A stretch of DNA of 64,000 nt from Prostheceraeus crozeri (taxonomy: Eukaryota > Platyhelminthes > Polycladida > Euryleptidae): the NCBI GenBank assembly GCA_907163375.1, contig CAJQUW010008941.1, positions 41,324 to 105,323 of the forward strand, read 5' to 3'. Below are positions 4,327-61,336 of the stretch, piece by piece; positions within the stretch are counted from its first letter, which is position 1, and each line of letters starts with the position of its first letter. The notes below the pieces were generated by a model, which saw only the letters and a list, made by a program, of their open reading frames with translations, had not been told where the DNA came from and ran no database searches. The translations under genes and the position numbers were made by a program.

Positions 4327-4977
4327 ATGAGTTGGAAATTAGATTCCCTACAACGTAATGAAACGGATCATGATCGAAACGTCTATTTCAAAGATTCAAC
4401 TGGAAATGTGAGAAGAGAGTTTGCTTAATCTTATCGTCATTTTCAATCTCTACATCATATCATGAAGGACTTGAAATACTTCTATATGAAAAGACATTCA
4501 CGTATTGGAAATCGCATCTGGCTGCGCGTCAACAATCGGCGAATTCAACTCTATCATTCCCAACTTCATACTAACTTCACATTTCATCAAGGTAGTTGGG
4601 AAAAGTATAAAAGGAAGGTACATCGCTCAACTTACTCATTCTTTCATCATGAAGCGCCATCGCTACACCATCGTCAACATTCTCCGTCGCTTCAGACTCT
4701 ACACCAAAATCGATCTCACCACATTACACCAACACCTTCCAAACAGAAAGTATTATCCGGGCCGACCTCAAATGTTAGTGGTGAAGATGAACAATTCACG
4801 GAATCTTCAACTCTTCCCAAATGGGACTGTACAGATTCTCGGCGCCCTTTCTCATTCATCGGCGCAGTCAATGCGCTTAGAGCTACAAAGACTACTACGT
4901 CGGATATGGAAGAGGGAGAGGTGTGTGATGTCGAATCTGACTGTGGACAATATGGTGATCTCTACTCAATTGAGTGA
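4327..4977 (+). pseudogene. PC4-like protein 2, broken by a nonsense codon (copy 1)
   Basis: Paralogue of PC4-like 1: WKLDSLQ, a glycine-containing turn, then FxLSYRHFQSLHHIM and a second half ending WEKYKRKVHRS. In this copy the frame stops at TAA 4426-4428 after 33 codons, where copy 2 has TTA. The same frame reopens at 4462 and runs to 4977, but past about 4650 it overlaps the TBP-like gene in another frame. Homology to the paralogue ends near 4660, so the tail to 4977 is probably not conserved coding sequence. The gene is intact in its PC4-like part in copy 2. Confidence 0.65.
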
Positions 4978-5194
4978 CAGTCTATCATTTTTGAAGATTC
5001 GTACCAGCAGTTACAATTTGTGTTATGAACCGGAACTTTTTCCTGCAGCTCTCATTAGTTGTTGGTTACCTGTGCATGTGGCAATCTTTCATAATAGTAA
5101 AGTGATCATTACTGGACTAAAATCTCATGTACAAGCAAACGTGATCCTAGACTATCTCATTGAGTATGTACGTACCCAGCGGATTGTAAAATAA
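4649..5194 (+). CDS. TATA-binding-protein-like protein (copy 1)
   Basis: A 181-residue protein of the size of a TBP core, with two direct repeats. Repeat 1 has KIDLTTLHQ (20-28), YPGRPQMLVVKM (36-47) and FPNGTVQILGA (56-66). Repeat 2 has YEPELFPA (126-133) and FHNSKVIITGLKS (147-159). YEPELFP followed by (F/I)xxSKVxxTGxK is the hallmark of TBP repeat 2. Three of the four DNA-kinking phenylalanine positions look retained (F56, F131, F147); the fourth is a proline (P40). The start ATG at 4649 gives a TBP-length product and the frame that aligns from residue 7. It overlaps the end of PC4-like 2. The stop overlaps AATAAA at 5190-5195. Predicted role: recognition of element promoters. Confidence 0.85.
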   Translation: MKRHRYTIVNILRRFRLYTKIDLTTLHQHLPNRKYYPGRPQMLVVKMNNSRNLQLFPNGTVQILGALSHSSAQSMRLELQRLLRRIWKRERCVMSNLTVDNMVISTQLSDSLSFLKIRTSSYNLCYEPELFPAALISCWLPVHVAIFHNSKVIITGLKSHVQANVILDYLIEYVRTQRIVK

Positions 5195-7458: not shown

Positions 7459-8679
7459 TCACTGTCGATCACTTAGATGAAAGATGTCGGCACGACGCAT
7501 CCAAGAGTTCATACTTGAAGGATAACCAGTCCATTTAACAAGACACCATTCTTCACCTTGCCGTTTTTTACATCGAATGATTTTCTCTACCAAATATGTT
7601 TCACTTTCAGTGACTACCTCAATCTCATCGCGGTAAAAGCTACCCTCAATTTCTTCATTATCGTAATCTTTCAACTTGTAGGTGGTGGGAGAGTCTTTTT
7701 GATTAATCCTTGATACTGTAAATACCTCCTCTGTCCAATTCGGAAGGTACCCTTTAGCAAAAACACTTTTCACTTTTGAGATACGAACTTTATCACCAAT
7801 TTTCACATCACTTTTCACATGAGTGCGTTTACGTTGGAATGATTCGCGCACTTTATCTACATTGTCAGCATTTACATCTACTGGTCTGAGTCCAATAGAA
7901 CGATGGATAGAGTGATTGTAGGCATGGAGTGTATCTTGTAGAACCTTTGTCCAATTTTGTGTCAAGTTGGCAGTAAAATGTCGCCACAAGCGATTTTTTA
8001 ATGTGCGATTAAAACGTTCAACGAGTGCAGCTTTATAAGCACTCTTTACACTAAACAACTCAATGTCATGCCTCTCAAATAATCTTGTCACATGCTGATT
8101 TTCAAACTCTTTTCCTTGATCACTCTGGATTCTTTTTGGAATCCGACCTTCTCGAAAAATTGTTTGGAATGCTTTTGCTACTCCTTTCCCTTCTTTAGTT
8201 TTTAAAGGTTGAGCCCACGCATAACGCGAGAAAATATCAATGACGGTTAAAATAAAATTATTACCCGAGTTATGTTTTGAAATGGAGGCAACGTCGCACA
8301 AATCTGCTTGCCACTGTTCATCGATGTCATGAACAATATAATGGCGGGTGCGGTACTTCTTTTTCGCTTGTTTGTGGAGTGTATAGGTAGCCTGACCCTT
8401 TAACCATCGTTTCACTTGTGATTGTGGAAGACCACTCGCTTTTGATAATTTCTTGATAGATGCAAATCCTGCCGGATGTTTTACGTCATAATAGATTGAC
8501 TTCAAACGTTCAGTCGATGACGACTGACTCTTTTTCCTCCTTCTCATCTTTTTGTTTTCTTGCCTTTCTACATTTACAACAACTGCAGCATTTAGCTTTA
8601 GCGGTTTTGCGATCGTGTTCACATTGCTTAGGGGTTTCATTATGAGAGCTGGCGCAGCAAGTGCAAGTGACAACGACAT
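7459..8679 (-). CDS. Retroviral-type integrase with chromodomain (copy 1)
   Basis: A DDE integrase responsible for inserting the element and making its 6-bp target duplications. In the 406-residue frame the core domain begins near residue 113. Catalytic residues are Asp126 (QADLCDV), Asp187 (IQSDQGKEFEN) and Glu221 (ALVERFNRTLKNR). An SH3-like region (VRISKVK) follows. The C-terminus carries a chromodomain with YLVEKIIRCKKR, EEWCLVKWTGYP and a conserved SW. The first 57 codons overlap the Cys-rich gene in another frame, and all four substitutions there change this protein but not the other. Translation therefore may start at the internal ATG at 8547 (MRRRKK). Confidence 0.93.
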   Translation of the reverse strand: MSLSLALAAPALIMKPLSNVNTIAKPLKLNAAVVVNVERQENKKMRRRKKSQSSSTERLKSIYYDVKHPAGFASIKKLSKASGLPQSQVKRWLKGQATYTLHKQAKKKYRTRHYIVHDIDEQWQADLCDVASISKHNSGNNFILTVIDIFSRYAWAQPLKTKEGKGVAKAFQTIFREGRIPKRIQSDQGKEFENQHVTRLFERHDIELFSVKSAYKAALVERFNRTLKNRLWRHFTANLTQNWTKVLQDTLHAYNHSIHRSIGLRPVDVNADNVDKVRESFQRKRTHVKSDVKIGDKVRISKVKSVFAKGYLPNWTEEVFTVSRINQKDSPTTYKLKDYDNEEIEGSFYRDEIEVVTESETYLVEKIIRCKKRQGEEWCLVKWTGYPSSMNSWMRRADIFHLSDRQ

Positions 8680-12969: not shown

Positions 12970-14261
12970 AGCTGATTCCAAATCTGGCCTCCGTTTACCA
13001 ATCCGAGCCTTCATTCGCCCGATGGAGCTGTTTCTTGGGAAATTCTAACTCTGTCGTTTTTCGCCAATGTCCCAAAATCTTAAATGGTGTCTCACATCTA
13101 AACGAAGACAGATAGGAACAAGGCGATTCTTTCAGTGAATTTGTCTCACTCTTAGCTTTCAAACGAGCTATTGCACGACTTTCTACGATCTCTAGAACCA
13201 AAGTTGGAAGATCGGTGCCGGGGGGGGGGGTCAGCGAAACTTTTTCTCTCCGATTGACTTGAAACTCACCATACCGATGCAGAATTTCACGCTGAATCCG
13301 AATCTGGCCTCCGTTTTCCCATCCGATGCCTGGTTTTGACGCTACAGCCCAAAACGTCCAAAATTCTAACTCTGTCGTTTTTCGACAGTCTCCCAAAATC
13401 TTAAATGGCGCCTCACATCTAAACGAAGACAGATATGAACAAGCCGTTTCTTTCACTGAATTTGTCTCACTCTTAGCTTTCAAACGAGCTATAGCACGAC
13501 AAAATCCGTCCACTGGAAGCCAAGATCGAAGCTAGCTGTCCAGAGGGGGGGGAGGTCAGTGAAATTTGATGAAAAATGTTTTGGTGACGGTCCCAGGTCG
13601 AAATTCCACACTTTGGAAAATTTTCAAAATTTTACCCATACAAAGCCACTCTGACACTTAGGATTTTTTCAGGTGAGCGAGCTCCGACCTAAAATCTTGT
13701 AACCGCTCTAACTTTTGAACGACTGGTCCGATTGACTCGCAACAAAAAATGTTGTCAAGCAGTTTTTTCTCCTCTTTCCAATGAAACTCGAACGAACAAA
13801 ATCCGTTCACTAGAACCAAAGTTAGAAGAGGGGGGGGGAGGTCAGTGAAATTTGATGAAAAATGTTTTGGTGACGGTCCCAGGTCGAAATTCCACACTTT
13901 GGAAAATTTTCAAAATTTTACCCATACAAAGCCACTCTAACACTTAGGATTTTTTCAGGTGAGCTACGACAGTCCACCCCTCCCAACCTGACCGGCACAC
14001 CACGCCAACCTGGCCGGCACACCACGCCAACCTAGACACCACATCACCGCGCGCTACACGACGGTCGACCAGAGGGGGGGAGACGTCAGACCCGAAACAC
14101 CACGGCGGCCGACCACGACACTCTGCCGGTCCAGAGGGGGGGGACGTCAGACCCGAAATACCACGGCGGCCGACCACGACACTCTGCCGGTCCAGAGGGG
14201 GGGGGACGTCAGCGATGGCGGCCATCTTGCGCTATCCAGAAGTGGAGTTTTACTTACTACT
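12970..14261 (-). repeat. Right terminal region of Polinton copy 1 with internal duplications
   Basis: 1.3 kb without a credible gene. A segment of about 140 bases at 13041-13179 repeats at 13363-13500. A second of about 128 bases at 13548-13676 repeats at 13838-13966. Near the end, three units of about 57 bases carry CCAGAGGGGGGG...ACGTCAG (14070-14217). The last 45 bases (GGCGGCCATCTTGCG ... TTACTTACTACT) match the end of copy 2. Runs of 7-10 G recur. Confidence 0.85.
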
Positions 14262-17540: not shown

Positions 17541-18719
17541 ATGGCTAACGATAAAAACAGAAAATTCCATATCAAGATGTGTGTATGCGGTCGTATAAAT
17601 CGCAGTGCGGACGCCAAGGCGCATGTAAAGAAGGCGGGCACTGACCACATGATTATCCTGAATAGGGTTGCGTGTGTAAAGTGTAGAGTGCTGAAGGGTG
17701 ATGAGGATGAGGCGTGTTTTTACAGAGTGCATGCTGACTGTAGTGGAGGATTGATGAATGACGTGCGATTCACGCAGTTGATTGTTAAAGAGAGGGAGCG
17801 AATGTTGGCGATAGAGCGAGAGGGCAAGGTTCAGAATGTTGTTGAGAATGTTGTTGAGGATGATGAGTTGGCGAGAGCAATTGCGTCGTTGGAGGGTGAG
17901 ATTGAGCGAAAGAGAGTGCTTGAGAGTGATGATGATGACGATGTGGATTTAGATAGGGAGCGTGTGAGGAAGCGTGTGAGGAAGTTGAGCTCTTCGTCGT
18001 CGGAGGTGTCAAACATTGTCATCACCGATCCCCCGCAGAGCTCATCTTCCCCAAAAGTGAAGAGTGGTGGGATTCGTATGCAGTCGGCGAGGTGGTTGAA
18101 GGATGAAGAGAAGAGGCATGTATCGCAGCAGATGGCGCATGATTTGTTGGTGAATAAGTATGAGAGTTTGAAGAAGGTGAAGGATGAAGTTGTGAAAGAG
18201 TTGGATGAGTTGAAAAAGAAGGAACTGAAGTCGAAGGAGGTAGCGGATGAGAACATACGAATGAGGCGTATTGTGACTGATTTGAAGAATAAGACGCGAG
18301 AGTTGGAAGAGAAGAATGATGAGTGTGAGAAGAGGGCGAGTGCTGCGGAGAGAAGAATGAGAGATGCAGAAGCGAAGTTTGAGGAGATGATGAAGGAGAT
18401 GAGTGTGTTGAGAGCGAGGAATGTTGAGTTGGAGAGGAATGTGGCTCGACGGGGTGATGAGAGGCAGGCGTATGAGAAGTTGGAGCGCATGAGGGATGAG
18501 TGGAATCGTGTGAATGAGGATCGTTTGTTTGAATTTCACATCCCTATTCGGGATAATCATTTGGACGGTCAAGTTCTTGTAAACCAGAATTTAGATGACT
18601 CCATCATATGCTACAACGGCCATCCAACCAAAAAATGCCTACACGCCAGCCTACGAATGCGCGGTCATCTGCACAAATTCTCGATTCGGAAACGCGCGAG
18701 ACTGCCGAAGGATGACTAA
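17541..18719 (+). CDS. Array gene A: zinc-binding coiled-coil protein
   Basis: A 392-residue protein of unrecognised family. Residues about 13-70 have a Cys/His cluster (MCVCGR, VACVKCR, CFYRVHADCSGG) likely to bind zinc. From about 85 to 320 it is dominated by Glu/Lys/Arg heptads (EREKMLAIERE-type, ELEEKNDECEKRASAAERR), a long coiled coil. The tail (CYNGHPTKKCLHASLRMRGH, ending RKRARLPKDD) is basic. The DNA is unusually purine-rich on the coding strand. The exon is bounded by a 3' splice site at 17520 and a 5' splice site at 18721 (TTG|GTAAGTG), 2 bases past the stop, so the 3' UTR is spliced before the hairpin-ribozyme unit. Confidence 0.7.
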   Translation: MANDKNRKFHIKMCVCGRINRSADAKAHVKKAGTDHMIILNRVACVKCRVLKGDEDEACFYRVHADCSGGLMNDVRFTQLIVKERERMLAIEREGKVQNVVENVVEDDELARAIASLEGEIERKRVLESDDDDDVDLDRERVRKRVRKLSSSSSEVSNIVITDPPQSSSSPKVKSGGIRMQSARWLKDEEKRHVSQQMAHDLLVNKYESLKKVKDEVVKELDELKKKELKSKEVADENIRMRRIVTDLKNKTRELEEKNDECEKRASAAERRMRDAEAKFEEMMKEMSVLRARNVELERNVARRGDERQAYEKLERMRDEWNRVNEDRLFEFHIPIRDNHLDGQVLVNQNLDDSIICYNGHPTKKCLHASLRMRGHLHKFSIRKRARLPKDD

Positions 18720-18721
18720 CT

Positions 18722-18784
18722 TGGTAAGTGAAAAAGTAAATAAGATAGTATATCCTATTCTAATACATTTCATTTTCATTGCAG
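18722..18784 (+). other. 63-base intron in the 3' UTR of gene A
   Basis: GTAAGTGAAA at 18722 and TTTTCATTGCAG ending at 18784 form a canonical pair. An alternative frame crossing this intron runs into the hairpin and is not favoured. Confidence 0.6.
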
Positions 18785-18836
18785 ATCTTTGCCCGCCTTC
18801 ATCACCCCATCAATTCACTCCCGAGAACGAACCATC

Positions 18837-18852
18837 GGCTCTCTTAAGGGCC
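18837..18852 (+). promoter_or_regulatory. Histone-mRNA-like 3' hairpin of gene A
   Basis: GGCTCT-CTTA-AGGGCC, a 6-bp stem with a 4-base loop, preceded by GAACCATC and followed by ACCTA. This is the layout of the replication-dependent histone mRNA stem-loop (GG-pyrimidine stem, 4-base loop, ACC tail), though the loop CTTA differs from the usual TTTC. Confidence 0.65.
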
Positions 18853-18857
18853 ACCTA

Positions 18858-18926
18858 GGGGCAAGACATGATAGAACCTCCACGCGGTTTGCCCTGGGCA
18901 GTCTTCGGACTGGCGAATACTATCAT
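18858..18926 (+). ncRNA. HDV-like self-cleaving ribozyme A
   Basis: All helices of the HDV-like nested double pseudoknot are present. P1 is 18858-18864 (GGGGCAA) with 18889-18895 (TTGCCCT), opening with the usual G-U pair at the cleavage site. P2 is 18868-18874 (ATGATAG) with 18920-18926 (CTATCAT). P3 is ACC 18876-18878 with GGT 18886-18888. L3 is TCCACGC; P4 is CAGTC-TTCG-GACTG (18899-18912). J4/2 is GCGAATA with the expected catalytic C at 18914. GGG 18896-18898 can form P1.1 with L3 cytosines. Predicted cleavage is between 18857 and 18858, five bases after the hairpin. Confidence 0.92.
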
Positions 18927-18927
18927 T

Positions 18928-18953
18928 AAGTTGAATCTGCGATCAGTCAACTT
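18928..18953 (+). repeat. Hairpin following the ribozyme
   Basis: AAGTTGA-AT-CTG-CGAT-CAG-TCAACTT folds into 7+3 base pairs. It is conserved after all three ribozymes, with loop CGAT or CTAT. Confidence 0.6.
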
Positions 18954-18977
18954 GAACGTTGCGTCGCGTTAGAGGGG

Positions 18978-18985
18978 TATATAAA
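18978..18985 (+). promoter_or_regulatory. TATA box of array gene B
   Basis: TATATAAA, 32 bases before the first ATG (19017), followed by TCATTTCATTTCATTTC, where transcription would start. The 5' UTR would be only about 10 bases. Confidence 0.65.
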
Positions 18986-19016
18986 CCACCGCCTCTCATT
19001 TCATTTCATTTCAATC

Positions 19017-19283
19017 ATGCAGACGCCGAACAGTCAAGTCAGCTCTCCTCGCGGACCGCAGTTAAGGCCGCGAAATTTATTTGAGGAGTTTGTAAGGCTA
19101 GAGGAGCAAGACAGAGTCCACAATAATCTTGCTCGGATTGGCAATCCGATGACAGCAACTGTTGTCAATCCAACGGAATGGCGCTACATTCCACTTTTCA
19201 GCCATGTGCCAATTAGCGTGGAAGTCGACACTGCTACCAAAGAGAGAGTCAAAGACTCTCTCAGCAGAATTGATAGGCTGTAA
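19017..19283 (+). CDS. Array gene B: small unknown protein
   Basis: An 88-residue intronless protein starting MQTPNSQVSSPRG, basic and proline/serine-containing at the N-terminus, with a charged helical C-terminus (ATKERVKDSLSRIDRL). Family not recognised; no signal peptide or membrane segment. Support for coding is contextual: a TATA box at the right distance, a single clean ATG, and a stop 29 bases before the same hairpin-ribozyme unit that follows genes A and C. Confidence 0.6.
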   Translation: MQTPNSQVSSPRGPQLRPRNLFEEFVRLEEQDRVHNNLARIGNPMTATVVNPTEWRYIPLFSHVPISVEVDTATKERVKDSLSRIDRL

Positions 19284-19312
19284 GATGACGTTACTCCCGA
19301 GAACGAACCACC

Positions 19313-19328
19313 GGCTCTCTTAAGGGCC
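19313..19328 (+). promoter_or_regulatory. Histone-mRNA-like 3' hairpin of gene B
   Basis: GGCTCT-CTTA-AGGGCC, preceded by GAACCACC and followed by ACCAT, five bases before the predicted ribozyme cleavage site. It begins 29 bases after the gene B stop. Confidence 0.65.
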
Positions 19329-19333
19329 ACCAT

Positions 19334-19402
19334 GGGGCAAGATTTGATAGAACCTCCTCGCGGTTTGCCCTGGGCAGTCTTCAGACTGGCGAATACTATC
19401 AT
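19334..19402 (+). ncRNA. HDV-like self-cleaving ribozyme B
   Basis: Same architecture and length (69) as ribozyme A. P1 is GGGGCAA/TTGCCCT; P2 is TTGATAG with CTATCAT, the outer pair lost; L3 is TCCTCGC. P4 is CAGTC/GACTG with loop TTCA, and J4/2 is GCGAATA with the catalytic C at 19390. Substitutions relative to A fall in loops, in the P1-P2 joint or in the terminal P2 pair. Confidence 0.9.
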
Positions 19403-19501
19403 TAAGTTGAATCTGCTATCAGTCAACTTGAACGTTATGCAGTCGATTGCTATCCCTGAAGCATTCTGATTCGCTGTTGAGCAATTCATTGTTGAAAACC
19501 C

Positions 19502-19509
19502 TATATAAG
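19502..19509 (+). promoter_or_regulatory. TATA box of array gene C
   Basis: TATATAAG, 41 bases before the ATG at 19550. About 60 bases upstream lies gcagtcgattgctatccctg (19441-19460), a 20-mer that is repeated in every unit of the tandem array at 20.3-21.1 kb. Confidence 0.65.
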
Positions 19510-19549
19510 CCAGAAGATTGTAGCACTTCTCATTCAATTTGAAGTCACG

Positions 19550-19795
19550 ATGGAAGCAACATCTACTAGCACCATTCCCGTCTTCATCGATGAAGACAGC
19601 GCCATTCTCGAGTTCATCATCCTCGACGAGTGGGATGAGAAGAAGGGGAAGATCAAGAAGATCGTTTGGACGGATGAGGTATGGACTCCGAATACCACTC
19701 GCATCCGAAAGGTGCCAGATGCACCACCACGGCTTAGGCGGTACAGGGTTTATGACAACCTAACTGTCATACCCATTGACTATTCCAGCCAATAG
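19550..19795 (+). CDS. Array gene C: small unknown protein
   Basis: An 81-residue intronless protein starting MEATSTSTIPVF, acidic in the first part (IDEDSAILEFIILDEWDEK), then lysine- and arginine-rich, ending IPIDYSSQ. Family not recognised. Supported by its TATA box, the single ATG after a short leader and the stop 32 bases before a hairpin-ribozyme unit. An overlapping frame from 19539 is less likely because it lacks this arrangement. Confidence 0.6.
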   Translation: MEATSTSTIPVFIDEDSAILEFIILDEWDEKKGKIKKIVWTDEVWTPNTTRIRKVPDAPPRLRRYRVYDNLTVIPIDYSSQ

Positions 19796-19827
19796 TCAAC
19801 TTAATTCACACCCGAGAATGAACCATC

Positions 19828-19843
19828 GGCTCTCTTAAGGGCC
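19828..19843 (+). promoter_or_regulatory. Histone-mRNA-like 3' hairpin of gene C
   Basis: GGCTCT-CTTA-AGGGCC, preceded by GAACCATC and followed by ACCAT, 32 bases after the gene C stop. Confidence 0.65.
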
Positions 19844-19848
19844 ACCAT

Positions 19849-19917
19849 GGGGCAAGACATGATAGAACCTCCACGCGGTTTGCCCTGGGCAGTCTTCGGA
19901 CTGGCGAATACTATCAT
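19849..19917 (+). ncRNA. HDV-like self-cleaving ribozyme C
   Basis: 69 bases, identical to ribozyme A over the whole fold: P1, P2, L3 TCCACGC, P4 with TTCG loop, J4/2 with the catalytic C at 19905. Predicted cleavage is between 19848 and 19849. The hairpin AAGTTGA...TCAACTT follows. Confidence 0.92.
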
Positions 19918-19944
19918 TAAGTTGAATCTGCTATCAGTCAACTT

Positions 19945-20290
19945 GAACGTTGCAAATGAAGTTCGGTGTAATACTTCCTTTCGACGGGCGTTCCTGTAAA
20001 GGGCGGCGGTGAAACCCGTAGCTATGTATACCGCAAGGGACATTCGGCAATGGTCAATCTTGTTTAACCTCTCTGCGTCATGTTTGCAAGTGATTGCCTC
20101 TGTCTCAACGTAGTATGCATTCGCGCCAGGGCGACATTTAGCCAACTGTCGAAGGTTGCCTAAAACTTTCCATTGCATACGTCATGAGAACCATGGGTTC
20201 TACCTGTCTCTATCAATGAGACGAATTGATGAATGGAATGAAATGGGAGGACACTCACGCGCCACACACAACATAACACACTTCTCTCTT
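19945..20290. other. Gene-poor stretch after ribozyme C
   Basis: No TATA-ATG-hairpin unit follows ribozyme C. A short plus-strand frame (MKFGVILPFDGRSC) and a minus-strand frame running back into the ribozyme are both unconvincing. It ends at the first unit of the tandem array. Confidence 0.4.
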
Positions 20291-21118
20291 CCGTAGTCTA
20301 ACAAGCTCTTTACACATGGATCGCAGTCGATTGCTATCCCTGTATCAGAAGTGTAAGCTATCTTAATTTTATTTGACACTATTTCATCTATCATCATCAT
20401 CGCCCATATGAAATGTTTTAAGATTTACAAGTTAGACTAAGCGTGCTACTATTTCCAAATGAATAAAGTATACATGGTTAAATCATCCACTTAAGCCCAT
20501 CCGTAGTCTAACAAGCTCTTTACACATGGATCGCAGTCGATTGCTATCCCTGTATCAGAAGTGTAAGCTATCTTAATTTTATTTGACACTATTTCACCTA
20601 TCATCATCGCCCATATGAAATGTTTTAAGATTTACAAGTTAGACTAAGCGTGCTACTATTTCCAAATGAATAAAGTATACATGGTTAAATCATCCACTTA
20701 AGCCCATCCGTAGTCTAACAAGCTCTTTACACATGGATCGCAGTCGATTGCTATCCCTGTATCAGAAGTGTAAGCTATCTTAATTTTATTTGACACTATT
20801 TCACCTATCATCATCGCCCATATGAAATGTTTTAAGATTTACAAGTTAGACTAAACGTGCTACTATTTCCAAATGAAAAAGTATACATGGTTAAATCATC
20901 CACTTAAGCCCATCCGTAGTCTAACAAGCTCTTTACACATGGATCGCAGTCGATTGCTATCCCTGTATCAGAAGTGTAAGCTATCTTAATTTTATTTGAC
21001 ACTATTTCACCTATCATCATCGCCCATATGAAATGTTATAAGATTTACAAGTTAGACTAAGCGTGCTACTATTTCCAAATGAAAATGTATACATGGTTAA
21101 ATCATCCACTGAAGCCCC
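20291..21118. repeat. Four-unit 206-210-bp tandem repeat
   Basis: Units begin at CCGTAGTCTAACAAGC at 20291, 20501, 20708 and 20914 and are nearly identical, each containing gcagtcgattgctatccctg, a CATCATCGCCCATATGAAATG stretch and TACATGGTTAAATCATCCAC. The first unit has extra ATC triplets. No frame is open across units. It lies between the ribozyme array and the Polinton 2 polymerase promoter. Confidence 0.95.
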
Positions 21119-21886: not shown

Positions 21887-24800
21887 ATGGTAAGTTGAAA
21901 ATTTCTTCACTCATCTCCCTCAAACGTGTGGCTAATAGCATCTTCCTCAATTTCAGGCATCAACTTCATCAACAACGCCCTCCCTTCTCGAGGAAAGTTT
22001 AGAGTTGTTGAGTCAAAGTAGGTTGTAACAATACACTGAGACTTGAACAGAGATGATAGAATGATTTCTCTTTCAGGTGATGTGAGTTCCAGCTCAGGAC
22101 TCTCGCGACAAGGCAACGAGTGGGAATGTGCCGACTGCGGACATATGTTTACAAGGAAGCACAGTCTCCTTCGACACATCAAACAACGTGTGTGTCAACG
22201 CAAAGCGGCGTCAATCTCCGGAGGTGAAGTTGATTCTGACGATGACATCTCCTTTCCTTGCGATTTGTGCCCTCTTTCTTTTGATAGTCACTTTCAGCGA
22301 TCTTCGCACAGACTTCAACACACGCATGCAAATGATCACTACACCAACGGTACCTCTACCATCTCCCTCATTAATGTTTCACATAATAATTTAGTACGCG
22401 ACTACTGCATGGAGTCCAATACTCAAATAGTAGATTTTCCTGAGTGGCTCCTTCAAAATTCTAACTTTATCGAAGCGCTCTTCAACAATTTAGACAATTT
22501 TAGAATGAAGGCGCTCATCTACCTTAAACTAAAATATATTAAGATAGATTTTCAAACGGGTCAAGTGACGGAGAGAATACAGTTTCATGTTCCTTCCTCT
22601 TCCGCAACCGAAGTTGTAGACTGCGAGTCTTGGCTAAATTTTCACATTCAATGTTTAAAATCAAATGTAGATAAATTCAATCAACGCGACAGCGCTCTCA
22701 TTTTTGATGGTGTGGACTCAGCCATATTCAAAATTTCCCTATTAGAAAGTCATGCAGCTCGAGGCACATTTACACTACCAAAAACGTTGTATAATAAGAA
22801 AGCTGTCATCAATGTCGATTGTAAATCACAGTGTTTCAAATATGCAGTCCTATCCATCCTTCACTATAATGACATCAACGCGAATCGAAATCATACCTAT
22901 AGCTATAGACAGTGGGAGGATGAACTAGACTTTGAAGGTTGTGATAGTAACAACATGAAAATCAAAGATGTAGAAACGTTCGAAAAACATAATAAGATTA
23001 AAATTGTCGTTCACGTGTGGGAGAAGGGGTTGAAGGGTGCCCGCTATAATTCACGTTCAACTTGTTATGAACGTGTAGTCAACCTCTTATTAGTAAAACA
23101 AGATGATAGCGAGGAATGGCACTACTGTGGTATTCCCAAAATCTCTCGCTTGCACACTCACTTGGGGCACTCTAAAAGAGGTGAACATTTTGTATGCGAC
23201 CGCTGCATCCACTCCTTTTGGAGTAAAGATAAATTTGAAACTCACTATGAATGGTGCAAGCGAGGTAAATTACAAATGGAACGCATGCCCAAAGATAAAA
23301 TATTTTCACATAGGGATAATGGTGACGAATTAAGTCCCCTGCGTGTCATTTACGCAGACATAGAATGCTACATTGATGATATCATCCACAAGCCAGCAGC
23401 CATATCCAGCTATGAAGTATGGCATGACCACTTTAGGAATAGACAAAACAAAATGCATACTTGGCAAGGTGAAGATTGCATTTCAAAATTTCTAGAATTT
23501 CTCAATAAAGCTGTTAAATTTCAACAATTATATGATTCCCAATTGCAGCGTAAGTCCCTACATATGTCAGATGAAGACAAACAAAAATTTGAAAGTTGCA
23601 CATCGTGCCCTAAATGTCATAAAACGTTTGATGACGATAAAATTAAGAAAGTGCGTGATCATGATCACATCACTGGTAAATTTAGAAACGCACTCTGCTC
23701 CAAATGTAACTTTTCACTTAGGTTGAGACGTCGTGTACTACCAGTCATTTTTCATAACTTTAAGGGCTATGACAGTCATATGCTCATAAAAGGAGGGTTG
23801 AGCCAGATGAAATCGTGGCAGTTTAATGTAATAGCGCAAACGAGAGAAAAATTCATGGCAATGACAGCAAAAGTACCAGTAGATAAAACTAAAGAAAATA
23901 AGACAGTCTTCTTCGAAATAAAATTTTTAGATTCATTTCAATTCATGTCAGCGTCACTAGCTTCTCTCGTTCGTAATCTCAAGTTTCTTCCCCATAGTCA
24001 AACTTTGAAGAAACACTATCCAAACTTAACGGATGAAATAATCACTCGCAAAGGAGTCTTTCCTTATGCGTATTTTAGCTCAATGTCTAAACTAAATGAA
24101 ACAACCCTTCCTTCCATTGACAAATTCAAAAACGATTTGACGGGTGAAGATTGTCCAGTAGAGGACTATGAACATGCTCAAGAGGCATGGTTAAAATTTG
24201 ATTGTAAAACGTTTGGCGATTATATGATCGCTTACTTAGAATTAGATGTCATTTTGCTGGCTGATGTCTTTCAGGAATTTCGACGAGTGGCATTAGAAGA
24301 AGACAAATTAGATCCTGTCCACTTTGTCAGTCTACCAGCCATGTCCTTTAAATCAGCCTTTAAAATGACTGGTGAGACCATTCATCTCTTACAAGACCCG
24401 GAGATGTATAATATATTTGAGCGCGGAATACGCGGTGGTCTCACATTTGTAAATAAACATCATATAAAATCTGAAACAGTAGGTGATGATCATATCCACC
24501 TAAAGTACTATGACCAAAATAATTTATATGGCAGTTCACTGTCTAAACCACTACCTCATTCCGAGTTTAGTTGGTTAAATCAAGATGAGCTTGAGTATTA
24601 CTCCAACCCTTCAAACATACTGAAGATTCCAGATGAAGGTGATTGGGGATATTATTTTGAAGTGGATTTGATTTATCCAAATAGCATTAAAAATAAAACT
24701 GCTGATTTCCCACTCGCACCTGAATCTGGTGAAGTGACTGAAGATATGTTTTCACCATTCATGTCACAAATTCATAATAACTTAACAGAGTGTGGACAGG

Positions 24801-25844
24801 CAAGGTACAAACTATGCCGCAAACTTTTACTCACCCAATATGATAAGAAAAATTATCTCGTACACTTCTGCATATTAAAATTCTATTTAGAAATGGGCAT
24901 GCTTCTAAAGTCAGTTCACCGCATTATCAAATTTAGACAGAAAGCCTTCCTCAAACCCTACATAGATAGTAACAGTCAAAAACGTGCACTCGCCCAAAAT
25001 AATTTTGAAAAGGATTTTTATAAATATAAGAATAACAGTCTTTTCGGAAAGACCATGGAGGATGTTAGAAAACGTATGAACTACAAACTAGTCGTTGATG
25101 AACAAAAATATCACAAATTGACCTCATCACCTCTTTTCATTGATAGAGACATCATCGATGAGGATCTTGTAGGTGTTAAAATGATAAAATCAGAAGTTGA
25201 GTTGTGCAAACCCATCTATATTGGGCAAGCCGTTTTAGATTATTCCAAGCTTGAAATGTATCAACTCTTCTACAAAATATTAAAACCATGCCCTCTCGTA
25301 AAAGAGGTTCGCTTGCTGGGTGGTGATACAGATAGTTTCTTTTTAGGAATTACCACTCAAAAAGATTTAAATTTTAATGAAGTAGGCAAGTCATTAGAAA
25401 AATATTTCGACACATCTAACTACAATCCCACTCATCCACTCTATTCCATACAGAATAAAGCCAGACTTGGTTGTTTTAAGGATGAAACAGCAGGAAAGGA
25501 AATAGATGAAATGATTCTCCTCCGTCCTAAAATGTATTCCATGAAATTAAAAGAAGCGTGCTAAAGGTATATCAAAATCCATTGTTCACAAAATGAAACA
25601 TCGGTCCTATAAGAAGGCCTATAAAAATAATACTATAACGTTTGTCAACATGACAATCTTAAAATCTCAAGTTCATACTGTGAAAACGCACACGTTCAAG
25701 AAACGAGCGCTTTCAGCATGGGAGGATAAGAGGTGTTGGATAGGACATAACACATCTCTTCCACATGGACATCCTGACACAAACATACCTCCACCCAAAA
25801 GAATAAATCTCACGCTACCACATTCAGGAGATGTATTAACATAA
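21887..25844 (+). pseudogene. polB: Protein-primed DNA polymerase B, spliced, frameshifted near the end (copy 2)
   Basis: Exons are 21887-21889 (ATG), 21957-22017 and 22077 onward; introns of 67 and 59 bases have GT...AG ends and keep phase. Domains in order: two C2H2-like fingers (WECADCGHMF 22121; FPCDLCPLSF 22253); an N-terminal domain with CFKYAVLSILHYND; exonuclease motifs YADIECYID (23351), HNFKGYDSH (23754) and LELDVILLADVF (24236); polymerase motif A YDQNNLYGSS (24509), B NSLFGKTMEDV (25034) and C GGDTDSFFLG (25319). A zinc-binding HDHITGKF segment (23657) lies between exonuclease motifs I and II. A 17-base deletion near 25553, relative to copy 1, causes a stop at 25562-25564 and cuts off the last part, which continues in another frame to 25844. 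Confidence 0.95.
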
Positions 25845-47640: not shown

Positions 47641-49109
47641 TTTTATCCAAAACCGGGACAAAACCGATAGGCCTTTACAGATAATGATAGTTGCTGACAT
47701 AAACAGCGAATTTTAATATATGTTGTTGGGTAATATCGTCAAACCCATACTGTGACAATCATTGAATCTTCATCCTTACGCGTTATGTAAACTGACTATT
47801 GGTAGCCTGCTTTTTCAAATACCTGTTATCTGTTTGATTTAACGTTTCATCTATTTTTCGTTATCCTAACTAATTCACAGCAGAGGACTGAGAAAGTGGC
47901 GAAACATAGTGCACAACCTTCACTTCGATGATGTGACTTAATAATGAACTTCGTATGTGATTCTGGTGTTTGTTTTCGTATCTACAGTATGTGGCAATTT
48001 ACTGAATGCTTTTTCCATTTCCACTAGTTTTTAGTATATTTATTCAATCGGTGTTCAGTCATTGATTGTTTAACTTGTTATGTTCAGGACTCATTACCTC
48101 CTCATTATGAACAATGACGGATTCTTAATATATTTTCATCCATACAGGATGTATAAATAAATGTGTATATCTGCAATTGTTTTTCCATACCTTATTATGT
48201 AATAATCAATTTGATAATATTTGGTTAATGTTGATCTCTGAAATGTATAATAAAACCTTTTTGGTTTATGTTGTATATTGTTTTATTTGTATCTTTTGCT
48301 TTCTACGACTGAGAGAATTCGATTCTGTTTCGTCGTGGCATGAAGATGTCAACTATATAAATATTTGAAACAATTCAGTAATTTTCTTGTCACCAAATGT
48401 GAATTGTTTATGTATTTAAAATACTATGACTATATGAACTAAAATACTATTTGTTCATGGAATCGTGAATTTTCCTCTTTATATCAGAGGTGCTGTCGTG
48501 CCTTGTCATTGGTTAAACGCTTTTCAGTCAATGGCAATGACAGCTGCATTATATGGCAAGCTTACATTTCATTTGTATACTCCAGAATTTCATTTCGTTG
48601 GCCTGTTATTTGTGACATCCCTACGAAATTGCTTACGAAACTCGACTGTTTGGAGCGCATCGTCAAGCGTTGGGGATTCATCACCATTAAGCTTCCACTG
48701 AAAGTCAGACTTGATCGAGGCTGTGTCAAATAGATTCGAGAAGTTGCTAATCACGCACACTGTCATCCTCTCACATCTTGTTTTATTGTTCGTGCGCCAA
48801 ATAGGCATGCAAGACACTCGCAAATTGTTGATGCCGTTTTGTAAACTTGCGTTCTACAAGTAATTTGTCAGATTTTCTTCCGAAACGTGATTTCTTCTGT
48901 ACACATCTCACCAAAAAAGCTATTTTGTATTTCGATTTATCAACAAAGCATTATATATAAATAAGAAAATACACTTTATTTAATGTTTAACCACTTCTGT
49001 GTTCACATTTCTGCCTCCCTCAGTAGCATTGTTTCCATATAGTTTTCATGTACACAATAAGAAACTAATGTTGTATCGAAACTCTTTATTTATAGTTGAA
49101 ATGGCAATA

Positions 49110-49762
49110 TTCCACGTTGTAAACAAAAAGATAGCTCTCCCTCAATTTAGACGATTTATTTATTTTTTTAAAAAATAAAGTTCCCCGACGCGTTTCGTCA
49201 CGGTGGACAGTATCAAGGGGGTAAGTAAATGAACAGGCAGTTGGCTTAAATATAAAAATGATTAGGCAGTGACGACTCGTTAGATCAATTCATGTTTGCG
49301 GTTGATTTGTGGCTTGTTCAACGCTATGAAGCGTGCTTCGGCCATTTTAGTTTGCATCGAATTCTTTTGTTTATTTAGGACAGAAAGCTGGAAATTATCG
49401 ATGTTCATCATTCTATCGACATGGTCAGTCAAACTATGTTCAGATAGTGCACTTTTACGATCTTGACAGTTCAAACTACGTCTGTGTTCATCATGCCGTA
49501 ACTTTAAAGGTCGGCAAGTTTGACCAATGGCCGAAGCACGCTTCATAGCGTTGAACAAGCCACAAATCAACCGCAAACATGAATTGATCTAACGAGTCGT
49601 CACTGCCTAATCATTTTTATATTTAAGCCAACTGCCTGTTCATTTACTTACCCCCTTGATACTGTCCACCGTGACGAAACGCGTCGGGGAACTTTATTTT
49701 TTAAAAAAATAAATAAATCGTCTAAATTGAGGGAGAGCTATCTTTTTGTTTACAACGTGGAA
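49110..49762. mobile_element. Penelope-like element fragment in foldback form with hammerhead-like motifs
   Basis: Two 236-base inverted arms (49110-49345, 49527-49762) surround a 181-base centre. The centre and left arm encode, on the minus strand (49280-49576), a GIY-YIG endonuclease tail: IGQTCRPLKLRHDEHRRSL, SEHSLTDH and MAEARFIALNKPQINR. Each arm carries a motif CCCC...CTTGATAC...GACGAAACGCGTC-GGGG (49183-49221 minus, 49651-49689 plus), laid out like the minimal hammerhead ribozymes of Penelope-like terminal repeats but with a degraded first core. Confidence 0.75.
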
Positions 49763-51539
49763 AATTGCATAATGAACCTCCCGTATAAGACAACAAAAGA
49801 AATGGCAATAAAATCAGAAATGCTGTTTATTTGCGTATTTTCGTATTTTCTGTTTGAATGTATGTCATGCAACATTTGCCTTTTTTTAAAAAGTTGAAAA
49901 ACTGCTGGTATGGCATGTCAAAATTAAGCTTCACATTAGGCATTGCCTTGATTGTATCTGCAAGTGAATTTTAGCACTGAAACACGGCAAAAACGTAACA
50001 TGCATCTGTCCCGAAAGATACTTTTGAGACGCCGGGACAAAATCGCCAAAACCGGGAAAGTTCCGATAAAACCAGGACTTATACTCACGCTGGTCTACTA
50101 ATGTCACGTTATTGTGATTGAATTTATCTCATTGCAGCAAACTATCAGTTAGCGCAACGCTCAGCAAAAAAAGTAAAAATGTATGAATAAGTAACACACA
50201 CTTGCATGACTATCGTGTCTGATGTATTCTTGATAGCTTAGGTCTAACATTGATAATGAAAAAGGAAATTTCAAATAAAACAATAAATTCCAATTTGTGA
50301 CAATGAAATATGTTTATCTTCAATGTTACTTCCTTGTTACTCCATCTTCATACAGCCTGTCTAAAAACAGATGTTAACGAATCCCGGGATTCTGAATCCC
50401 GTAAAAATAATGTGATCCTGTGATCTCGGAATTGAAAACCTTAGCTGCGTGTACATAACAACTGTGGTTAAAGTAGAATATTTCTCTATGAGCAAATTAA
50501 TTCCGATATTTGATCGATCCCAGGATTGAGCTAACCTGAGGCAATGTAAGCAAAAACTGTGGTCTACTCATCAATTTGCCTCCGAAAATCTCAATCCCTG
50601 CGGTTGGCTAATTCCTAATCCCACAGTTCAATCCCAGTTTTGAGTGATTCGCTAATGTTCATTTTGCTAATTTCTCAATCCCAGGATTGGAATTGCCGGT
50701 CTGTAGCAACTAGCAAGGCGCAGCCGCTGCCAGAGTTAACAAGCAGCGAACATACGCTTTGCAATCCTTCTGCTAGAGACAAAGCTGACTCATTCATTCT
50801 CTTCACTTCATAGCATCTGTGTTTCAGTTGATCGGCAGAAGTGCAAGATACTAACCATCAATCGAGCACTGAAAACATATCGGTCGCTCATTGGCTCATT
50901 CCTGACAACTTATCGGCGGACGTGCGCGTCTTCATCCTGTGCAGTCCTGCATTATTGTCTATACGATGAAGCAGATCAATCTTCCCACGCTCTCTATTCA
51001 AGGTCATCAACACGAGCTGAGTGAAATTGAATGAGTGTTCGAAAGAGACTTGATGCCCGCTGGATTAGGAAACCCATAAGGAATAAGGGAACCAATCTAT
51101 GGAGTTCCAGTCGGGATTTCGATTTCGTTAACTGATAATTAATAGGACACATTTTCATTTCATTGCAGTCATTGTTCGATTTCGACGTACTACTTCATAT
51201 CATGAGAATGCTCATAATCCAAAATTTCTTTTGATACGCTTGTGGTCAATGGTCACTAATGATGAAAATGCACCTGGATATCAGTGTACACTGAATATCA
51301 TCCACAAACAAGTTATCCAGTAAAAAAATCAAGAAAAAATACAAGTTATATGAGTTATACTTAACATTTTTGCTGTAAAATAACATAGCTTCAGTAGTCA
51401 AAAGTGCATTTCTGAAAAAATCAAGGGAGGAAACACACTATGGTGTCGGTTTCGATTAGATGATCTATTAAATTGGGCTGCGACATGTTGATCATTAATT
51501 TGATAAAGAAAATCAATATTGTCTTGTAAGCATCGCTAT

Positions 51540-59320: not shown

Positions 59321-60312
59321 TTTAGGAAATATGCCAGGGATTCACAAGAGCACCAGAAGCTACTCTTTTTAATACATCCCTACCATACTTCTGCAAATCA
59401 CTTAGTATACTGTGATCGGACGTCATGAACAATCATAATTTTCATCATGATCATTTCACTTTGTTGACTCCAAACCTGTCACCTTGCTGAGCTGTGAGCT
59501 ACAAGGTTCGAAAAGGCACGTATTAATTCAAAGACTAAGTTATTCAGCATTGTCAATAAGTTGGAATTCAGGCATGAAACTCATGAGACACGACTTCGCG
59601 ATCACTTGCCAATTTTGCCATGCTTCCGATCATATGCCATGCGTCCGTGGTTTGATCATCACAGAGCATGTCCTTCCACTCATGAATGACTTCCGGCATC
59701 GATTCCAGGATTTGTAAGAAATGGAAGAAATGCAAAGCTGCCTACCTCAGTCATCTGTTTACAAAGCGTAGCATTGAGAACTGCTACCAAATGGAGCTGG
59801 TTGACAATTCGAACGGAGTTGAATGGGCAAGAAGGTCAGGATACACTGAAGTATGCCATCGAAAAACAAGAATATAGTACAACCCAGGTTTGAAAAGTGT
59901 ACATTTGATAACAGTGTCTTCCTTGGAGGTCAAACCAGTCTTGAATATGTGGAACCTTAGGAAACTACTTCAGTAATCACAGTACATAATTTAGTCAACC
60001 ATTGAAGATTTGTGGAAATCTGAGAGGACAGCCCACTTAACATCTTCTAGATTCTTCATTATGGAATGACACTGCACCAAAATAAGCAGAAGATTTTATT
60101 TGCTTTGAATTTTTGAACGAGTTTCATTTGAAACGCATCTCGGATCCTTTTTATCTACGTGTATATGGTTATCCAGATAATCCAACCAAGGCTTATAAAT
60201 CGCTAACTTCCTGAAGCTCATTGGAGCGGCAGCTCTAACTGCATTTCGAAAATTGGATAAAATCCTATTGGAATTCAACTCTGTGACATTGATCTTGTAT
60301 TTTTCTTTAATC

Positions 60313-60818
60313 GGAAAGATCTAAATCATGTTATAAGCAACAAATCATTTCAAAAGCTGAAGTACATGATAACAATTAAATAAGGTGCACACAGTAACTA
60401 GACTCAAATTAATTTACATTTGAAAAAAGCACCATCATGGTTAACTTGCTTATTCAAAGTGGGGTTGAGTTTTTTTATGTACATGGCTTCCAAAATATTT
60501 AGGTCATAAGTGTTGGGAGCTTGTGATAGAATTTTGAAATTGTCAACTTTACAGCTGCAACTGCAATTTAACCTATGGCCAGAAATGGCGGACATTTTTT
60601 CCCGATGTTCGGAAACAACACTTATGACCTATATATTTTGGAAGCCATGTACATAAAAAAACTCAACCCCACTTTGAATAAGCAAGTTAATCATGATGGT
60701 GCTTTTTTCAAATGTAAATTAATTTGAGTCTAGTTACTGTGTGTACCTTATTTAATTGTTATCATGTACTTCAGCTTTTGAAATGATTTGTTGCTTATAA
60801 CATGATTTAGATCTTTCC
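60313..60818. mobile_element. Second Penelope-like foldback fragment
   Basis: Inverted arms of about 200 bases (60313-60514 and 60617-60818) around a 100-base centre. The minus frame 60404-60595 reads ILEAMYIKKLNPTLNKQ, the E...I..L.P.LN end of a GIY-YIG endonuclease as in Penelope-like elements. No hammerhead-like motif seen. Confidence 0.6.
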
Positions 60819-61336
60819 TATCATTGTTTTCACCTCTTTTAGCTTAATTTTCTTTAATCGTATATTAAGTACGAGCTAAAAACTCTCAGAGCCAATTAAT
60901 TACATTGCAATTCAATAACTAGGTAAATCAAGGAAACCATAAATACCGGTACATGGAAACTATGTACTAAGTCGTCATATTTTAACTCCACAAATTTAGT
61001 AGATCTTTCAGACGAATTCAAAGTCCGGATATCTCGATCTTCAATCCCAGGATTTCAGAAACAAAAAATTAACCAGAATTATTGAACACAAACTTCAATC
61101 GGAAACAGACGTATTATTTCGTTCTTCGCATGGTAAAGCCAGTGAGTACATAGTGCTGAAACCTTACTAGAAATAAGAAATAAAACATCAGGTACATTGA
61201 AAATACGATGTCTTGTTATCAATAAGTAGGAGTACAAGCACCTCTAATTACAGCTTGAGATTCATATATTAATGTTGGGTAGCTCAACTTCTTCCTCGTC
61301 AGTCTTGAAGTAAAATAGTCAGCCATTGTTAGATAT

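Follow-up and report, generated by a model that had tools for sequence, protein, structure and literature searches.

Putative hairpin-ribozyme terminator units behind genes A, B and C

The stretch of DNA analysed here (the window, 64,000 nucleotides from Prostheceraeus crozeri) raises the question of how the mRNAs of three genes that lack the usual polyadenylation signals acquire their 3' ends. Neither AATAAA nor ATTAAA occurs anywhere between positions 18720 and 20461. On the forward strand genes A, B and C, three different open reading frames of one Polinton/Maverick-like element, are each followed by a unit composed of a histone-type hairpin and an HDV-like ribozyme fold. This arrangement points to an undescribed route to mRNAs without a poly(A) tail, as far as can be judged from the sequence.

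The hairpins, GGCTCT-CTTA-AGGGCC (GGCTCTCTTAAGGGCC) in each unit, are located at 18837..18852, 19313..19328 and 19828..19843. Exactly 5 bases separate each of them from its ribozyme. The first spacer, ACCTA (18853..18857), would form the predicted mRNA 3' end, and the other two read ACCAT (19329..19333 and 19844..19848). The ribozyme folds follow at 18858..18926, 19334..19402 and 19849..19917 and comprise 69 bases each; all three were recognised by Rfam matches, a fold descriptor and the alignment of copies. Re-reading at 18837, 19313 and 19828 thus confirmed the three units, the spacing and the fold length given in the earlier note. The same note had placed the hairpins about 30 bases behind the stop codons, which holds for gene B (29 bases) and gene C (32 bases) but not for gene A, where the distance is 117 bases, or 56 if a putative 61-base intron of the 3' UTR (GTAAGT...TTGCAG, 18724..18784, forward strand) is removed.

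All window copies show helices P1 to P4 in the HDV topology, while P1.1 was recognised by eye only. P1 (GGGGCAA/TTGCCCT, 7 bp) opens with a G-U pair; P2 (TGATAG/CTATCA) has 6-7 bp, being extended by an outer A-T pair in the first and third copies; P3 (ACC/GGT, 3 bp) encloses an L3 of the sequence TCC(A/T)CGC; P4 (CAGTC/GACTG, 5 bp) is closed by the loop UUCG or UUCA and followed by GCGAA with the catalytic C in J4/2. The topology, the G-U opening of P1, L3 (UCCNCG(C/U)) and the C after P4 are shared with known HDV-like ribozymes (RF00094, RF02682; R2, L1Tc, SIDER). Those of mobile elements release 5' ends, according to the parts of the literature available to us, whereas the window's folds lie behind stop codons, are coupled to a histone hairpin and score below the gathering thresholds.

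The covariance-model check proposed in the earlier note did give matches to HDV-like ribozymes at 24.8-28.3 bits, but all were below the gathering scores of 44 and 50. Between 18700 and 20000 the HDV-F-prausnitzii model scored 26.8-28.3 bits (E 0.007-0.014), the best value belonging to ribozyme 2, and the HDV_ribozyme model 24.8-27.1 bits (E 0.16-0.46). In the same region the hairpins reached 18.1-18.9 bits against Histone3 (RF00032; E 0.04-0.08, gathering score 34), with hairpin 1 at 18.9 bits. At gathering thresholds Rfam found no match in the whole window, and every HDV and twister match of this analysis falls below the respective cut-off. A genome search with RF02682 yielded no match among the 62 scored of 81278 candidates. 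The predicted folds of the hairpins are clearly more stable than those of shuffles (z -2.5 to -2.9); the energy of the window ribozymes was no better than that of shuffles (z about -0.6) in a calculation of nested folds, with pseudoknots outside the model.

A chance origin of the units was rejected on three counts. With up to 3 mismatches allowed, the window contains the 18-base word GGCTCTCTTAAGGGCCAC 3 times, where 0.03 occurrences would be expected. The HDV-fold descriptor, which was composed after the three sites were known, found exactly these 3 places on the forward strand, none on the reverse strand and none on either strand of 60 dinucleotide-shuffled sequences. Finally, the exact 16-mer hairpin word (GGCCCTCTTAAGGGCC) occurs 100 times in the genome (2.05 Gb) and its reversed control 0 times.

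Genes preceding the putative terminator units

Gene A (17541..18719, forward strand) is a 392-aa reading frame without a Pfam match above the cut-off, whose first exon may lie further to the left. It has two relatives in the protein collection, P0003 (92%) and P0004 (67%), and more distant homologues at two other loci of the set (22% in L029, 24% in L087). Gene B (19017..19283, forward strand) encodes 88 aa and also has two relatives in the collection. It is under purifying selection, with a dN/dS of 0.25 within the window's subfamily and 0.31 between subfamilies (intact ORFs only). For gene C (19550..19795, forward strand, 81 aa) the value was 0.46, likewise from intact ORFs only. Genes B and C are preceded by TATA boxes on the same strand, at 18978..18985 (39 bases before the ATG) and 19502..19508 (48 bases before the ATG), respectively. 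Elsewhere conventional signals are found: 11 of the 19 other ORF entries have AATAAA or ATTAAA within 400 bases of the stop and 8 have neither, and the relatives of gene C in the sister subfamily end with AATAAA and possess no hairpin or ribozyme.

Conservation of the units by compensatory changes

The units belong to a 151-bp repeat, which is present three times in the window (91% and 97% similarity of the other two copies to the first) and many more times in the genome (40 scored of 742 candidates). Behind genes B and C the distance from the ORF to the unit is in most cases 27-34 bases. The hairpin, P1, P3, G1, the catalytic C and the CC of L3 are all preserved in 19 of 22 distinct window-type units, and 14 of the 22 have every helix intact; for the window-type unit of L074, no HDV family matched with E at or below 0.5.

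In a more distant sister subfamily, whose PolB is 56-63% and whose gene A is 22% identical to that of the window element, two-sided compensatory changes preserve the hairpin and the ribozyme helices, with P1 mismatches in many copies. Among 75 distinct units such changes maintain hairpin pairs 3, 4 and 5, P1 pair 3, P2 pair 1 and P4 pair 4, and for these six pairs none of 500 column shuffles reached equal pairing. Because the units are related by descent the counts are not independent events, and the independent compensatory changes are fewer than they suggest. J4/2 of the sister subfamily reads ACTGAAT instead of the GCGAATA of the window type, and full pairing of P1 is seen in only 12 of the 31 units that carry the hairpin GGCTCTTTTAAGAGCC and in 17 of the 22 remaining units. 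Because of the changed J4/2 and the incomplete pairing of P1, many sister-subfamily copies may be inactive. The sister-subfamily units of L029 gave no HDV family match at E up to 5. A hairpin at L107 gave no Rfam match of any kind at E up to 1.

Exchange of the ribozyme for a twister-like ribozyme

Another sister element, more closely related to that of the window (PolB 79-92%), has a twister-like instead of an HDV-like ribozyme behind this same hairpin, and homology to the window picks up again directly behind this twister terminator. Of 56 sampled sites of the 16-mer hairpin word 13 had an HDV-like core, 34 a twister core and one a damaged twister; two lay behind H4 genes and six were of other kinds. 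All six twister-bearing loci given matched the type-P1 twister model (RF03160) behind the hairpin, at 28.8-36.5 bits; the best match in the genome had 57.1 bits and the gathering score is 67.2. A loose H3 marker match at two twister loci (L073, L082) was taken as spurious, since 5 of 11 letters were allowed to differ.

The sister units share with type-P1 twisters the UAA loop, the core GGUCCCAAGCCC, GAGGG, and P1 and P2 with two-sided changes. They differ in that they lack the P3 arm of the model, carry an extra hairpin behind the core, are placed behind a histone hairpin and score below gathering. Among 26 distinct units, 23-26 have a canonical pair at any given position; the set leaves out 14 places that resemble the core but lack the GAGGG anchor, and another 3 close to the edges of loci. 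It is hard to explain why two unrelated self-cleaving classes should be swapped behind one histone hairpin unless cleavage is the function.

Histone hairpins and SLBP of the host

The hairpin of the element is of the same type as that of some of the host's own H3 and H4 genes and has the same loop. The host hairpin, GGCCCT-CTTA-AGGGCC (GGCCCTCTTAAGGGCC), was found behind the gene in 3 of 12 sampled H3 matches and was absent from the stretch read in the other 9 and in all 4 weaker histone matches sampled. Two H4 loci carry it 34 bases behind the stop, but they are no independent sample because they were found through the hairpin word. The layout GGYYYU-loop-ARRRCC with AC(C) behind it is common to the window hairpins, their copies and the host histone hairpins, the bases that follow being ACCAC in H4 and ACAAA, ACACC or ACAAC in H3. 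The similarity extends to the upstream flank, which reads GAACGC..AAAC in the histones and GAACG..ACC in the element. A host gene for the stem-loop binding protein SLBP was recognised by its PF15247 domain in two pieces (E 8e-11 and 1e-4).

The element resembles the histone mRNA 3' end (RF00032, the target of SLBP) in the 6-bp GG..CC stem, the 4-base YTTA loop, the AC(C) behind it and the predicted end about 5 bases past the hairpin. It differs in that its genes are not histones and that the ribozyme occupies the place of the U7 target. The cleavage product of a ribozyme bears a 2',3'-cyclic phosphate and the end of a histone mRNA a 3'-OH, which counts against the explanation proposed below. 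The histone loop of Caenorhabditis elegans is CTTT, with CTTA in four H2B genes, according to the part of the source available (PMC1924863).

Proposed formation of the 3' ends

We consider it highly probable that the ribozyme makes a histone-like mRNA 3' end, free of poly(A), for the SLBP of the host. Genes A, B and C would then carry a ribozyme-driven copy of the host histone 3' end. Each gene would be transcribed by RNA polymerase II, with a TATA box of its own in the case of B and of C, and the freshly transcribed ribozyme (HDV-like here, twister-like in the sisters) would cut the RNA near the hairpin. In the HDV-like form the cut would fall 5 bases past the hairpin, in the twister form 6 or 8 bases, if the twister cut lies between U and A, as we take it to do. 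The upstream piece would be a capped mRNA without poly(A); it would terminate in the hairpin and ACCNN, as mature mRNAs of replication-dependent histones do in a hairpin of this kind. It would be protected, exported and translated with the help of SLBP, probably best in S phase, and the downstream 5'-OH piece would be discarded. We infer self-cleavage, SLBP binding, the lack of poly(A) and S-phase expression of the A-C mRNAs, and likewise a bypass of U7 and CPSF73 at these ends. The proposal of the earlier note, with a ribozyme acting in place of the histone-type cut and the hairpin left for SLBP, is supported at the level of sequence by the H3 and H4 hairpins and the SLBP gene of the host, by the compensatory changes in the hairpin, P1, P2 and P4 (75 copies), and by the exchange of HDV-like for twister-like ribozymes.

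It might be thought that the ribozyme forms the end and the hairpin merely blocks exonucleases, with SLBP and the cell cycle uninvolved. A stable hairpin alone can protect an unpolyadenylated end, and a second twister group does carry a non-histone hairpin (AGCCT-TTACG-AGGCT or near, in 16 of 19 loci sampled of 38 matches). This reading is nevertheless unlikely, as the hairpin of the window has the histone layout and matches that of the host histones in stem, loop and flank; moreover, changes among the units preserve this layout, the loop being TTTA or CTTA in 67 of 75.

It is very improbable that A, B and C form one long RNA merely cut up by the ribozymes, or that the ribozymes serve the following 5' end. 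The genes are indeed arranged head to tail, and the R2 and L1Tc elements use HDV-like ribozymes to release 5' ends, according to the sources as far as available. However, the TATA boxes of B and C sit behind the ribozyme of the preceding gene, no gene lies directly behind the third unit, and pieces born by cleavage would have no cap.

We give slightly less weight still to an end made by the ordinary SLBP/U7 machinery of the host, with the ribozyme as a relic or passenger. The two cut sites would nearly coincide, and sister-element hairpins reach 36.1 bits against Histone3, with 9 of 52 matches over the cut-off, two of these nine (L023, L024) having no ribozyme core. A search of the genome for U7 gave at best 23.9 bits (cut-off 34) among the 65 scored of 574164 candidates. 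Against a relic stand the compensatory changes in P1, P2 and P4, the fact that 73 of 75 units have a C in the catalytic position, and the swap for an unrelated class; in the stretch read, moreover, what follows the hairpin of the host H4 genes differs from the ribozyme sequences. Finally, a functionless spreading repeat that resembles hairpin and ribozyme by accident would account for the copy number, but the covariation, the regular place behind B and C, the selection on gene B and the two ribozyme classes led us to reject it as scarcely credible.

The Polinton/Maverick-like element

Genes A to C share their element with a PolB-like gene (22061..25564, forward strand) with an Endonuclease_7 domain, a weak C2H2 finger and a DTDS motif; no polymerase domain matched, and the name B-family polymerase is our reading of the motif. 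The left tandem copy contains a retrovirus-like integrase with a chromodomain (7459..8679, reverse strand; rve 1.3e-10, Chromo 6.2e-7). Matches to an A32-like ATPase (16.1 bits) and an Ulp1/adenain-like protease (18.2 bits) were weak and below the Pfam cut-offs. Of the Polinton/Maverick gene set (integrase, ATPase, protease, PolB) the integrase is therefore clear and the polymerase recognised by motif only. In 7 of the 8 copies retrieved, a segment like window positions 13422-14150 stands in inverted orientation on the left side of the part they share, resembling a terminal inverted repeat. Unlike Polintons/Mavericks, the present element adds the histone-hairpin/ribozyme terminators and a TBP-like gene; the portions of the Polinton/Maverick literature available make no mention of such terminators. 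IMG/VR searches with the hairpin words and the integrase gave a single match, which was discarded as it sits within an apparent phage coding sequence.

With somewhat less confidence than in the ribozyme-made end itself, we favour a natural, modular system of mRNA 3'-end formation, in which virus-like DNA elements took the histone hairpin of their host and coupled it to exchangeable HDV-like or twister ribozymes. Combined with the elements' own TATA boxes and TBP-like factor, such a system would provide genes that are fitted to S phase and independent of poly(A), and for which U7 snRNP and the polyadenylation machinery would both be dispensable.

The earlier note knew of no such combination as a terminator. 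No natural precedent appeared in the accessible parts of the literature (further PMC3774820, PMC4035085, PMC11071296 and PMC6431247), but an engineered one exists: in the available part of that study a histone stem-loop directly before a delta ribozyme, in place of the poly(A) signal, restored normal levels of an unspliced, non-polyadenylated globin transcript in HEK cells (PMC4456446). That construct is man-made, whereas the window's is natural, resides in virus-like elements and has an exchangeable ribozyme. The ribozyme-ended RNA was still poorly spliced in the engineered case (PMC4456446), an observation that does not fit well with the intron proposed for the 3' UTR of gene A.

If our reading holds, RNA itself forms mRNA 3' ends, in a design that a laboratory also built by hand. 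To our knowledge the 3' ends of natural protein-coding mRNAs are made by protein endonucleases. The HDV-like and twister ribozymes of animal genomes would gain a clear role in gene expression, and a DNA virus-like element would be seen to ride on the histone/SLBP pathway of its host; in addition, compact terminators of natural origin would become available for mRNAs free of poly(A).

Hairpin and ribozyme units of the window

Genes A (17541-18719), B (19017-19283) and C (19550-19795) lie left of PolB in a Polinton/Maverick-like element, of which a partial tandem copy is located about 25 kb further on. The earlier note had claimed that each is followed by a histone-type hairpin, a five-base spacer and a 69-base HDV-like fold, and all three units were read in the sequence (hairpins 18837-18852, 19313-19328 and 19828-19843; folds 18858-18926, 19334-19402 and 19849-19917). 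A scan of the window with an HDV-fold descriptor revealed only these units, and none in 60 shuffles. In the proposed covariance-model check HDV families and Histone3 were matched, but all Rfam scores in the window were below gathering. AATAAA and ATTAAA were absent from 18720-20461. Because 8 of 19 other ORF entries also had neither signal within 400 bases past the stop (the remaining 11 did), this absence is only in keeping with the ribozyme acting as terminator. TATA boxes are situated 39 bases ahead of the ATG of gene B and 48 bases ahead of that of gene C, so that each gene can be a separate transcription unit.

Past each ribozyme there is an inverted repeat, AAGTTGA...TCAACTT (18927-18953, 19403-19429 and 19918-19944), within a conserved 151-bp repeat. 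At one locus, L006, a fourth unit was present 525 bases past the third, which is the spacing of one gene plus terminator; it is likely the result of a tandem duplication of gene C.

The element and its genes

Profile matches showed that the element encodes an rve-chromo integrase and a TBP-like protein (4505-5194, forward strand; PF00352, E 1.1e-19). A TBP-like gene seems unusual for a Polinton, and genes B and C possess TATA boxes. An A32-like ATPase and an Ulp1/adenain-like protease gave weak matches only. One large gene, matched by Endonuclease_7 and weakly by a C2H2 finger, carries a DTDS motif, from which it is taken to be PolB. A segment resembling 13422-14150 was found inverted, left of the shared part, in seven of eight other fetched copies, and is thus placed as a putative terminal inverted repeat would be. 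Between gene C and PolB there is an array of tandem repeats of about 207 bp (20183-21012), matched in other copies too. Long inverted repeats at 49104-49768 and 60310-60821 (243 nt at 100% and 206 nt at 98%) had no visible connection to the terminators.

Judged from its coding sequences, gene B is under purifying selection. With intact ORFs only entered, its dN/dS was 0.25 among 12 ORFs of the window's subfamily, 0.47 among 16 of a second, diverged subfamily and 0.31 between the two; that of gene C was 0.46 (13 ORFs). Among the 16 window-type loci listed, gene A encoded at least 379 aa in 9 and was broken or shorter in 7; two of the 16 (L008 and L015) are one and the same place.

Conservation across HDV-type units

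From loci L001-L052, 99 HDV-type units were gathered, 75 of them distinct. The second subfamily came to light in a Histone3 search of the genome, which scored 75 of 295389 candidates and gave 52 matches. Its hairpins rank with the best of these; selection by hairpin score biases its units toward intact hairpins. Of 30 loci retrieved by this search, 28 contained at least one HDV-type unit, and L023 and L024 had none. Identity of the second subfamily (L029, L069) to the window was 56-63% for PolB (two main stretches), 22% for gene A, 56% for gene B and 49% for gene C. Over both subfamilies, two-sided changes were observed at hairpin pairs 3-5, P1 pair 3, P2 pair 1 and P4 pair 4. These positions remain paired in 66-75 of the 75 units, and 0 of 500 shuffles pair equally well. 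The stem GGCTCT/AGGGCC varies to GGCTCT/AGAGCC and GGTCTT/AAGACC, and 67 of the 75 units have a TTTA or CTTA loop.

The J4/2 strand of the second subfamily deviates (ACTGAAT), and Rfam returned no HDV family for L029 at E up to 5, nor for a window-type unit, L074, at E up to 0.5. P1 was intact in 12 of 31 second-subfamily units with the hairpin GGCTCTTTTAAGAGCC and in 17 of the 22 others; the hairpin itself was intact in 14 of those 22. Since P1 mismatches are described as seldom found in HDV-like ribozymes and as a probable cause of inactivity (PMC3774820), many of the mismatched copies may be dead. Second-subfamily homologues of gene C in L029, L039 and L069 (both orientations) end in AATAAA, not in hairpin plus ribozyme, from which it appears that the terminator has been gained or lost gene by gene.

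Likeness to host histone hairpins

The hairpin of the element is of the same type as that on some host H3 and H4 genes. GGCCCTCTTAAGGGCC was located behind the gene in 3 of 12 sampled H3 matches (L056-L058). The other nine had no such hairpin in the 218-235 bases read, with AATAAA in two of them, and four weaker histone matches (L065-L068) had none in the stretch read. Two H4 loci on one contig, both retrieved through the hairpin word itself, carry it 34 bases past the stop, with ACCAC behind it. Across the genome of 2.05 Gb the 16-mer was counted 100 times and its reversed control zero times. The 56 sites sampled comprised 13 with an HDV-like core (element copies), 34 with a twister core behind this exact host-type hairpin, one damaged twister, the two H4 genes and six others. 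At L107 the 16-mer has a similar upstream flank, but Rfam matched nothing there at E up to 1 and the sequence past the hairpin contains no ribozyme of a recognised kind; this is possibly a further terminator form.

The RNA-binding domain of the host SLBP was found in two pieces on a single contig. Histone hairpins of Caenorhabditis elegans have CTTT or CTTA loops (PMC1924863). A loop of this kind is therefore no obstacle to SLBP binding, although it does not mark the host as a nematode.

Exchange of the ribozyme class

Six of the twister loci were tested with Rfam and called twister-P1 (28.8-36.5 bits, E 3e-5 to 5e-3; below the gathering value of 67.2). Every position of P1 and P2 was paired in 23-26 of 26 distinct twister units; changes on both sides of a pair were seen in P1 (pair 3, 1 unit) and in P2 (pair 3, 7 units; pair 4, 1 unit). 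The presumed U|A cut lies 8 bases past the hairpin in 21 units and 6 bases past it in 5.

In one element, L087, the two units on the left side of PolB both combine this hairpin with a twister. The first (2626) follows a homologue of gene A (24% identity; ORF 1373-2365, match extending to 2485), the second (3130) lies 26 bases past a 95-aa ORF for which genes B and C as queries gave no match. PolB shares 79-92% identity with that of the window, and nucleotide homology restarts at window position 19951, about 10 bases or less from the terminator end. Hence close relatives differ in ribozyme class while hairpin and position are kept. Of all the evidence, we regard this swap as arguing most strongly that selection would act on cleavage itself.

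The 38 highest-scoring twister matches listed for the genome (best 57.1 bits) form a separate group. AGCCT-TTACG/TTATG-AGGCT or a near form was present in 16 of 19 sampled loci (L130-L144, L146), followed in 10 of the 16 by ACCCA and then the presumed cut. L130 and L131 carry, upstream, part of a gene A homologue (35%, E 2e-6), and L133 contains a weak one (E 0.14; 1e-9 against L087 in the nucleotide comparison); these three loci apparently have two such hairpins in tandem. The hairpin of this group, unlike the histone hairpin, is not of the GG..CC type; the group stands outside the main claim.

Proposed formation of mRNA ends

We consider it highly probable, with confidence very slightly lowered by the L074 unit without an HDV match, that self-cleavage yields a histone-like mRNA end for SLBP. 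The ribozyme would cut the nascent transcript co-transcriptionally, and the cleaved mRNA would end like a histone message and be a substrate for SLBP; it would carry a terminal cyclic phosphate, which may require trimming. The same design, a histone stem-loop before a ribozyme, is known in man-made form: in HEK cells an engineered globin gene with a histone stem-loop and delta ribozyme regained a normal level of unspliced transcript, but splicing was not restored (PMC4456446), which is awkward for the putative 3'-UTR intron of gene A. The literature searched, mostly outside subscription journals, yielded no natural histone stem-loop with a self-cleaving ribozyme, no ribozyme-bearing Polinton/Maverick and no natural twister ribozyme with a histone link. 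The parts are of known kinds, yet no natural system is known to us in which the ends of mRNAs are made by a histone hairpin and a self-cleaving ribozyme.
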